NCBI GenBank assembly: GCA_024276815.1
Contig: JAJRWM010000169.1
Coordinates: 1 to 5,924, forward strand
DNA from: a bacterium
Lineage (GTDB): Bacteria > JACRDZ01 > JAJRWM01
Length of the DNA: 5,924 bases
Direction of reading: 5' to 3'
Below the pieces are notes generated by a model. The model made no database searches. It was not told where the DNA came from and was given only the letters and a program-made list of their open reading frames with translations. A program made the translations under genes and the position numbers. Shown piece after piece: positions 2,029 through 5,480 of this stretch (positions are counted from its first letter, which is position 1; every line of letters starts with the position of its first letter).

Positions 2029-2865
2029 GTGGCTGTTAAAACATATAAACCAACAACTCCTTCGCGTAGATGGATTACTACTCTCGATAATAAGGAAGTA
2101 ACCAAAACGCGACCGGAAAAGTCGTTGACCGAACCCAAAACCCGTATCAGCGGCCGCAATAACGCCGGCCGGATAACTGTCAGGCGGCGTGGCGGCGGCC
2201 ATAAACGTCTTTACAGGATTATCGATTTCAAGAGGAACAAGGACGGCGTTCCGGCCAGAGTGGCGGCGATTGAATATGATCCGAACCGCTCGGCCCGAAT
2301 CGCTTTGCTGCACTATGCCGATGGGGAAAAACGTTATATTCTCTGGCCCAAGGGGCTGGAGGTTGGCGATCAGGTCGAAAGCGGCGAAAACGCGCCGGTT
2401 CGAACGGGTAATTGCCTGAAGCTTAAGCAGTTGCCGCAGGGCACAATTGTGCATAATATTGAGCTTCGCCAGGGTAAGGGCGGTCAGATGGTGCGTAGCG
2501 CCGGCGGTTACGCTCAAGTGGTGGCTTTTGAAAACAAATACGCTTACCTGAAGATGCCGTCCGGCGAGGTGCGAAAAGTACTCGAGGAATGCCTGGCGAC
2601 CGTTGGCGAGGTTGGCAACTCCGACCACGCCAATATCTCCTGGGGTAAAGCCGGCCGCTCACGCTGGAAAGGCCGTCGGCCTAAGGTGCGCGGGGTCGCG
2701 ATGAACCCGGTCGACCATCCTCATGGCGGCGGTGAAGGCCGCACTTCAGGCGGACGTCACCCTGTTACTCCCTGGGGTATCTCGACCAAGGGACATAAAA
2801 CCAGGAGCAATAAGAGAACTGATAAATATATTGTCACGGATAGAAGACAGAAGCGTAATAGATAG
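2029..2865 (+). CDS. rplB: 50S ribosomal protein L2 (uL2)
   Basis: 278 residues (E. coli 273). It starts with GTG at 2029; GAAGGGG at 2015-2021 is 7 nt upstream and lies inside the end of rplW. The N-terminal part has [10 protein letters not shown] and [20 protein letters not shown] (residues 42-61), which binds 23S rRNA. The C-terminal part has [14 protein letters not shown] from residue 225; His230 corresponds to E. coli His229, implicated in peptidyl transferase activity and subunit association. The extreme C-terminus is [13 protein letters not shown] plus a basic tail. L2 supports assembly of the peptidyl transferase centre and contacts both subunits. It ends with TAG, which matters for interpreting the TAG inside rpmC: reading through would append 16 unrelated residues before a TGA. 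Confidence 0.97.
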
Positions 2866-2881
2866 GAGCAAAGGATAATAA

Positions 2882-3169
2882 ATGGGCAGATCGTTAAAGA
2901 AGGGGCCATACGTTGATGAGAAGCTTCTCAAGAAGGTCAGAGAGGCGACCTCAAAGGGTGAGACCAAGGTAATCAAGACCTGGGCGCGTAATTGTACCAT
3001 TGTTCCTGAAATGGTTGGGCACAGGATAGCGGTTCATAATGGTAAAAAGTTTTTCCCTGTTTACCTGACTGAGAATATGGTAGGGCATAAGCTGGGAGAG
3101 TTTTCGCCAACCAGATATTATCGTGGGCATCCCGGTACCAAGGCTGAAAGAAAATCTTCAGCCAGGTAA
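2882..3169 (+). CDS. rpsS: 30S ribosomal protein S19 (uS19)
   Basis: 95 residues, close to the usual 92-93. It opens with [18 protein letters not shown] and contains [15 protein letters not shown] and [13 protein letters not shown], all hallmarks of S19. S19 binds 16S rRNA in the 30S head, pairs with S13, and lies near A-site tRNA and the intersubunit bridge. The ATG at 2882 has AAAGGA at 2870-2875, 6 nt upstream. The segment ARNCT at about residues 35-39 differs from the common SRRST and the C-terminus ([13 protein letters not shown]) is slightly extended; neither argues against the assignment. It lies 16 nt after rplB and 19 nt before rplV. Confidence 0.97.
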
Positions 3170-3188: not shown

Positions 3189-3524
3189 ATGGAAGCAAAA
3201 GCATTGGCTCGATATGTGAGAATAGCGCCGCGCAAAGTGCGAATGGTTGTTGATGTTATTCGCGGTCAGGCTGTTGAGACGGCCTTTAAAAATCTTCAGT
3301 TTGTTAACAAGCGTCCCAAAGAAGTCGTGGAGAAGACGCTTAAAAGCGCTGTCGCTAACGCCGGCTATAATGGTGAAATGGATATCGATAAATTATACGT
3401 GAAGTCCGTTTATGTTGATCAAGGCCCGACTTTAAAGCGTTTTATGCCCAGAGCAATGAGACGGGCTACCAAGATAGAGAAGAAAACAAGCCATATCACT
3501 ATAGTAGTGGCAGAAAGGGCGTAG
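3189..3524 (+). CDS. rplV: 50S ribosomal protein L22 (uL22)
   Basis: 111 residues, aligning without gaps to the 110 of E. coli. The N-terminus [19 protein letters not shown] is the canonical L22 opening, which with the Shine-Dalgarno fixes the start at the second of two tandem ATGs. Further landmarks are [18 protein letters not shown], and the hairpin and C-terminal strand [15 protein letters not shown] then [14 protein letters not shown]22 touches all domains of 23S rRNA, and its beta-hairpin lines the exit tunnel near the L4 loop. At the hairpin, residues 90-91 are Met-Arg where E. coli has Lys-Gly; Met at 90 is common, but Arg at 91 is less usual. The gene ends in TAG, 2 nt before the rpsC start. 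Extending through TAG would add about 36 unrelated residues. Confidence 0.96.
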
Positions 3525-3526
3525 CT

Positions 3527-4204
3527 GTGGGGCAGAAAGTTCATCCCAATGGTTTCAGGCTGGGCACAACTAAGACCTGGAGATCGCGTTGGTTCGCGAC
3601 CAAGGATTATGCTGGTTTTTTACATGAAGATTTGAAATTGCGCAAATACGTTAAAGGTATTTATAGTTTTGCCGGCACCTCGGAGATCGAGATCGAGAGA
3701 GCCGGACAAAAAATCAAGATTAATATCTATACCTCCCGCCCGGGAATCGTTATCGGCAAGAAAGGGGTCGCTATCGAGGCTCTGAAAAATGATCTGAAAA
3801 AGATGACGGGCAAGGAAGTGCGGATTAATATAAAGGAAGTTAAACGACCGGAGACGGACGCCCAGTTGGTAGCTGAAAACGTCGCGCTACAGTTGGAGAG
3901 AAGGGTTTCTTTCCGCCGGGCGATGAAGAAAGCTCTTACCTCGGCTTTGAAAATGGGAGCCGAGGGCATCAAAATATCAACGGCGGGTCGTTTGGGCGGT
4001 CGCGAGATGGCGAGAACTGAATGGTATCTGGAAGGTCGTCTGCCCCTTCATACTTTGAGGGCTGACATTGATTATGGCTTCGCCGAGGCCAGCACGACTT
4101 ATGGTTTGATAGGCGTGAAGGTCTGGATATTCAAGGGTGAAGTGATGTTAAAAGACTTGTACGAGAGCCGGCTGAAAAAAGCCACATCTATGAACGAAAA
4201 GTAG
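3527..4204 (+). CDS. rpsC: 30S ribosomal protein S3 (uS3)
   Basis: 225 residues (E. coli 233, which has a longer basic tail). The GTG start at 3527 follows GAAAGGG (3513-3519) by 7 nt, and [13 protein letters not shown] is the invariant N-terminus. A type II KH domain follows, with the loop GKKG at residues 77-80 inside [10 protein letters not shown]. The C-terminal domain has SGRLGG-like [16 protein letters not shown] and the closing block [16 protein letters not shown]. Arg130, Arg131 and Lys134 (FRRAMKKA) correspond to the E. coli mRNA-entry-channel residues linked to ribosomal helicase activity. S3 sits in the 30S head at the mRNA entrance with S4 and S5. It ends in TAG, 13 nt before rplP. 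Confidence 0.97.
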
Positions 4205-4217
4205 TTGGAGCAAACTT

Positions 4218-4646
4218 ATGTTAATGCCTAAAAAGGTGAAATATCGTTATCAGCATCGCAAGAAATTTAGCGGCAACGCCAAGCGTGGCACCGAGATCAA
4301 CTTCGGCGATTATGGTTTGAAGGCGCTGGGTTCGACCTGGATTACGGCTAACCAGATTGAGTCGGCCCGTATCGCTATTAACCGTTTTATGAAGCGCGAA
4401 GGCAAGATATATATTAGGATATTCCCGGATAACCCCTTTACCAAAAAACCGCTGGAAACACGTCAGGGTAAAGGTAAGGGAAGTCTGGAGGCCTGGACGG
4501 CCAGGGTAAAGCCCGGCCGGATTATGTTTGAGATCAGCGGTGTTCCCCACGCTGTAGCTAAAGAGGCGATGCGTTTGGCAAGCCATAAATTACCGATTAA
4601 AACCAAGTTTATTTGTCGACCTGGTTTGGCGGAGGACGTTCATTGA
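4218..4646 (+). CDS. rplP: 50S ribosomal protein L16 (uL16)
   Basis: 142 residues (E. coli 136). The N-terminus [10 protein letters not shown] is a standard L16 opening, and the ATG at 4218 has GGAG at 4207-4210, 7 nt upstream; the in-frame ATG at 4224 would be 13 nt away. Other landmarks are [24 protein letters not shown], written here as separate motifs [10 protein letters not shown] and [14 protein letters not shown], then GKGKG, and the C-terminal [10 protein letters not shown]16 joins late in 50S assembly and contacts A-site tRNA. Arg82 ([10 protein letters not shown]) corresponds to E. coli Arg81, the residue hydroxylated by the YcfD/RoxA oxygenase there; whether it is modified here is unknown. 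The TGA stop overlaps the rpmC start codon by 4 nt (TTGA). Confidence 0.96.
4631..4635 (+). promoter_or_regulatory. Shine-Dalgarno for rpmC, inside the end of rplP
   Basis: GGAGG, a perfect core anti-16S match, lies 7 nt before the TTG at 4643. It shows that initiation of L29 is intact and was presumably under selection, despite the stop codon 15 codons later. Confidence 0.85.
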
Positions 4647-4843
4647 AAGCTAGTGAATTAAGAGAGATGACCATTGATGAGCTTAACTAGAAGCTCCGTA
4701 AAGAAAAGGAAGCGCTTTTTAAGTTGCGGTTCCGTGCCGCGACCGGCAAGCTGGAAAATCCGATGAAAGTCAGGATGATCCGCAGGGAAGTCGCGCGGAT
4801 CAATACCGTGGTCGGCGAGAAACAAGAAAGCGCCAGAGGTTAA
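4643..4843 (+). pseudogene. rpmC: 50S ribosomal protein L29 (uL29), interrupted by an in-frame amber codon
   Basis: From a TTG start with a strong Shine-Dalgarno, the frame reads [15 protein letters not shown], then TAG at 4688-4690 (codon 16), then [40 protein letters not shown] and a short tail to TAA. Counting the TAG as one residue, the product is 66 residues, the normal L29 length, and both sides match the family in one frame (ELR..., LRFxxATGxLENP, RREVARI). No frameshift is needed. L29 is a two-helix protein at the tunnel exit beside L23. The gene lies where L29 belongs, between rplP (4-nt overlap) and rpsQ (1 nt apart). Relatives often have Gln or Glu at the stop position, so CAG to TAG is the simplest origin. 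Translation to the first stop gives only 15 residues. Partial suppression, reinitiation at the TTG at 4724 (39 residues), or a sequence error are alternatives. Identity is near certain; functional status is not. Confidence 0.9.
4688..4690 (+). other. In-frame TAG at codon 16 of rpmC
   Basis: The codon sits between AAC (Asn15) and AAG (Lys17), in the linker/second-helix start of L29. The following base is A; a 3' purine is known to favour amber suppression in E. coli, which leaves leaky readthrough possible but does not demonstrate it. I see no recoding hairpin directly downstream. TAG also terminates rplB, rplV and rpsC in this window. Confidence 0.95.
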
Positions 4844-4844
4844 T

Positions 4845-5102
4845 ATGGAAAAGAGGAATCTGCGAAAAGAGCGCGAGGGAATTGTCGTCAGCGTTGACAT
4901 GGATAAGACTATTACCGTGGCGATTGCCCGGTTGGTTAAGGATCCGCTTTACGGCAAGACCATCAAGAAAACCAAAAAGATTATGGCGCACGACGAAAAA
5001 AACGAGTGCGAGGTCAATGACCGGGTGCGGGTTATGGAATCCCGTCCCCTTAGCAAGCGAAAACGTTGGCGTTTAATAAATATCGTAAAAAAACATAGTT
5101 AA
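4845..5102 (+). CDS. rpsQ: 30S ribosomal protein S17 (uS17)
   Basis: 85 residues, close to E. coli's 84. It contains the S17 core: [47 protein letters not shown] and the signature [14 protein letters not shown]17 is an OB-fold primary 16S rRNA-binding protein in the 30S body, needed early in assembly. The ATG at 4845 has GAGG at 4836-4839, 5 nt upstream and inside the end of rpmC, and lies 1 nt after the rpmC TAA. If rpsQ is normally coupled to rpmC translation, the amber codon in rpmC could lower its expression; its own Shine-Dalgarno may compensate. Small departures from the commonest sequence are Asp for His in the 'KHPxYGK' block and Asn for Gly before the 'D-x-V' turn (VNDRV). Confidence 0.96.
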
Positions 5103-5111
5103 GAGAAAACA

Positions 5112-5480
5112 ATGATCCAATTACAAACAATCTTAAACGTAGCAGATAACACAGGCGCCAAAAAGTTAATGTGCATCAGGGTCCTGGGCGGTTCCAAGCG
5201 GCGTTACGCGCATATTGGCGATATTATCGTGGGTGTGGTAAAATCCGCTATTCCCGGCGGCGCCGTGAAAAAAGGCGAGATCGTCAAGGCGGTTGTGGTG
5301 AGAACGTCCAGCCCTCTTAAACGGAAAGACGGCTCTATTATCCGGTTCGATGATAATGCCGCCGTGATCGTGGACGCCCAGAAGCAACCGAGAGGCACAC
5401 GGATGTTTGGCCCGGTTTCCCGGGAATTGCGGGAAAAAGAGTTTATGAAAATAGTCTCTTTATCAGCTGAAGTTTTATAA
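5112..5480 (+). CDS. rplN: 50S ribosomal protein L14 (uL14)
   Basis: 122 residues, the standard L14 length. It opens [18 protein letters not shown] and contains [63 protein letters not shown] and the terminal [12 protein letters not shown], all family hallmarks. L14 binds 23S rRNA at the intersubunit face, forms bridge B8 with 16S rRNA and is the target of the silencing factor RsfS. It is the first gene of the classical spc operon, but only 9 nt separate it from rpsQ, so no promoter or terminator marks the boundary. The Shine-Dalgarno (AAGAGA at 5101-5106) overlaps the rpsQ stop and is weak, which fits reliance on coupling. Confidence 0.97.

Follow-up and report, generated by a model that had tools for sequence, protein, structure and literature searches.

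The window examined here, a single whole contig of 5924 bases, has both ends cut inside a ribosomal operon and contains rpmC, the gene for ribosomal protein uL29, with a TAG stop inside its reading frame. Does this stop belong to the organism, or is it a wrong letter in the assembly? In a preliminary description, the frame was said to be a complete L29 broken at codon 16 and to continue as good L29 in the same frame beyond the stop, and both statements hold. Translation of the frame places TAG at codon 16 (Table 1), the read-through product matches the full PF00831 profile (79.6 bits, positions 1-57 of 57), and coding bias is normal both 5′ and 3′ of the stop. The genomic L29 match scores 77.9 bits, above the curated cut-off of 24.5. 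Its TTG start codon overlaps the TGA stop of L16, and a GGAGG lies ~7 bases upstream. What the gene lacks is the uninterrupted reading frame of a uL29. A search of the whole assembly for a second rpmC copy, proposed earlier as a check, found none; the gene is single-copy.

Among relatives, the frame is open. A same-species genome was sought, and there was no match within the genus or family; comparison was made with three genomes of the same phylum (L16 identity 55-63%), and rpmC is open in all three. L29 is present in 375 of 386 genomes searched, and the window's rpmC is the only one with an internal stop among the ~155 stronger matches listed from these genomes. Codon 16 falls in a highly variable column, occupied in 69 aligned L29 proteins by Q (13), K (10), E (9), A (7), T (6), D (5) and others, and by N and S in the two nearest relatives. 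Because of this variability the changed base is not identifiable, and from the alignment the ancestral residue cannot be inferred. The CAG-to-TAG origin first suggested is possible, Gln being the commonest residue at the column, but with this genome's codon use, and assuming uniform substitutions, TAG could have arisen in one step from GAG, AAG or CAG with about the same probability.

A frame that goes on past TAG could also mean that TAG is read as an amino acid, through a suppressor tRNA, pyrrolysine or a code change. A few other genes of the same draft genome have an internal TAG, and the recovered tRNA set is incomplete (~33 genes, in a draft 91% complete), which leaves this explanation some room. 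However, none of the ~33 tRNA genes found carries a CUA anticodon, and a crude pyrrolysine-tRNA-like pattern has no match in the draft. TAG also serves as an ordinary terminator, ending rplB, rplV and rpsC (L2, L22 and S3) within the window and 109 of 423 strong open reading frames, about a quarter, in an 826-kb sample of the draft. Release factor RF1 is present and intact (539.5 bits). Furthermore, genes in the draft are interrupted by TAA more often than by TAG, and by TGA too. Amber reassignment was thus rejected on both counts, TAG being in use as a terminator and RF1 being intact with no CUA tRNA found, and decoding of the rpmC codon is extremely improbable.

Internal stops also occur elsewhere in the draft (246 contigs, 91.4% complete). 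In the 826 kb, sampled as separate stretches, in-frame stops flanked by same-frame coding signal were collected, and Pfam was then used to ask whether one domain crosses the stop. This coding-bias scan returned 25 strong candidates, compared with 4 in 621 kb of control sequence, taken from two genomes of the same phylum (221 kb and 400 kb). All 4 control candidates look like two adjacent genes rather than one broken gene. In approximately 15 draft genes, as judged by reading of domain limits, the stop is spanned by a single Pfam domain or by one homologous protein, against 0 in the control; S1, FabH and an RmlA-like gene probably add to these. Under equal rates, all 15 would fall in this draft with a probability of ~2 in 10,000, and at least 25 of the 29 candidates would do so with one of ~8 in 10,000. 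The draft thus carries an excess of nonsense codons in unrelated essential genes.

Table 1. Coordinates of features in the window, followed by genes elsewhere in the draft with an internal stop.
Feature	Position	Strand	Description	Basis
rpmC (uL29) reading frame	4643..4843	+	TTG start, broken at codon 16	operon place, PF00831
In-frame TAG of rpmC	4688..4690	+	most likely assembly base error	translation; draft-wide stops
rplP (uL16)	4218..4646	+	intact, stop overlaps rpmC start	
rpsQ (uS17)	4845..5102	+	intact, next after rpmC	
rplB (uL2) terminal stop	2863..2865	+	TAG	
rplV (uL22) terminal stop	3522..3524	+	TAG	
rpsC (uS3) terminal stop	4202..4204	+	TAG	
Na/H exchanger			TGA inside	Pfam/protein across stop
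Nucleotidyltransferase			TAG inside	Pfam/protein across stop
SbcC			TGA inside	Pfam/protein across stop
Asparagine synthase			TAG inside	Pfam/protein across stop
Trigger factor			TAA inside	Pfam/protein across stop
Rubrerythrin			TAA inside	Pfam/protein across stop
UMP kinase PyrH	L094:6239-6976, contig C8		TAA inside (+ a TAG)	Pfam/protein across stop
AdoHcyase			TAA inside	Pfam/protein across stop
Response regulator			TAA inside	Pfam/protein across stop
ClpX			TAA inside	Pfam/protein across stop
PlsX			TAG inside	Pfam/protein across stop
CysS	L136:3043-4557, contig C149		TAA inside	Pfam/protein across stop
ABC ATPase			TAA inside	Pfam/protein across stop
RarA			TAA inside	Pfam/protein across stop
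GAF-containing kinase			TGA inside	Pfam/protein across stop

Among the interrupted genes, cysS and the UMP kinase gene pyrH are both single-copy and essential; the cysS stop sits at the Glu of the HHENEIAQ motif of its homologues, and pyrH contains two in-frame stops of different kinds. No cell using the standard code is viable with these stops, and the draft therefore contains base errors. The residues replaced are varied, as far as the few homologues tell: the AdoHcyase stop, like that of CysS, stands at a position of Glu, the RarA stop where one homologue has Lys, and the PyrH stops at positions of Lys, Thr or Asn. A damage signature limited to C-to-T changes was considered and is not seen, the changes appearing mixed.

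Since the same draft carries TAA, TAG and TGA inside many conserved single-copy genes, the rpmC TAG is itself most likely a base error. With a probability of about 0.93, it reflects one wrong consensus base in a draft rich in errors, and the organism most likely carries an ordinary, intact rpmC. The draft is probably a low-coverage metagenome assembly, and low read depth would be the underlying cause; the rpmC stop probably belongs to the same class as the draft's other stops. The preliminary description had offered a recent change, a sequence error or a decoded codon as alternatives. The occurrence of all three stop kinds in essential genes strongly favors the second, while the third finds no support. 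Fifteen stops in 826 kb, with 3.8% of random substitutions yielding a stop, correspond to an error rate of at least ~5 per 10,000 bases, or higher if detection is incomplete; a literature search found no directly usable error rates for such assemblies. At the estimated rate, ~3 or more wrong bases are expected in the 5.9-kb window, so that one interrupted gene among its ~13 is unremarkable. Counting against an assembly error, no further stops or frameshifts are seen elsewhere in the window.

Several residues encoded in the window depart from otherwise conserved columns. In uL16 (rplP), Tyr replaces Trp at position 65, Gln replaces Met at position 83, and several more differences occur, at columns that vary little or not at all among 83 homologues, the three same-phylum genomes included. 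These are probably lineage divergence rather than errors, because some need two base changes. In uS19 (rpsS, 3023-3025), Arg (AGG) replaces a Thr found in all 75 homologues, and in uL14 (rplN, 5463-5468), Ser-Ala stands where all 79 homologues have Ala-Pro. As one-base changes could account for them, these departures may be further sequence errors.

L29 is dispensable in E. coli and is among the less essential ribosomal proteins, so that in principle it could truly be lost. If the stop were a real nonsense mutation of recent origin, or a variant of the strain, L29 would be cut to 15 residues in the population and the ribosome would work without it. The remainder of rpmC is free of decay and no other copy is present, both of which fit such a loss, and an initially proposed minimal set for translation did not contain rpmC (PMC9035817). 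Nevertheless, the stops in cysS, pyrH and plsX, genes that cannot be lost, make error the simpler cause, and L29 is retained nearly throughout the genomes searched. A real mutation is accordingly very unlikely, and it is highly improbable that a natural bacterial population lacks full-length L29 through one. Alternatively, translation could restart 3′ of the TAG at a codon such as the in-frame TTG at 4724-4726, which is preceded by the purine-rich AAAGGAAG, and produce a shortened L29. This form would lose the first helix and occurs in no relative, whether among the three same-phylum genomes, the 69 aligned L29 proteins or the matches listed from the 386 genomes. A restart is also unnecessary if the TAG is an error, and is exceedingly unlikely.

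The rpmC stop is almost certainly neither new biology nor a real feature. Before a single interrupted gene in a draft is taken as recoding or gene loss, its stop should be weighed against the rate of in-frame stops across the rest of that draft. Draft metagenome assemblies with consensus base errors are marked by scattered stops of all kinds in conserved genes that are otherwise intact, together with fragmentation, and this draft shares these traits. The usual uL29 gene, rpmC of the S10-spc operon, lies between rplP and rpsQ. The window's rpmC shares its length, its place in the operon, its start overlapping rplP and its full-profile match to PF00831, but differs by one TAG at codon 16.
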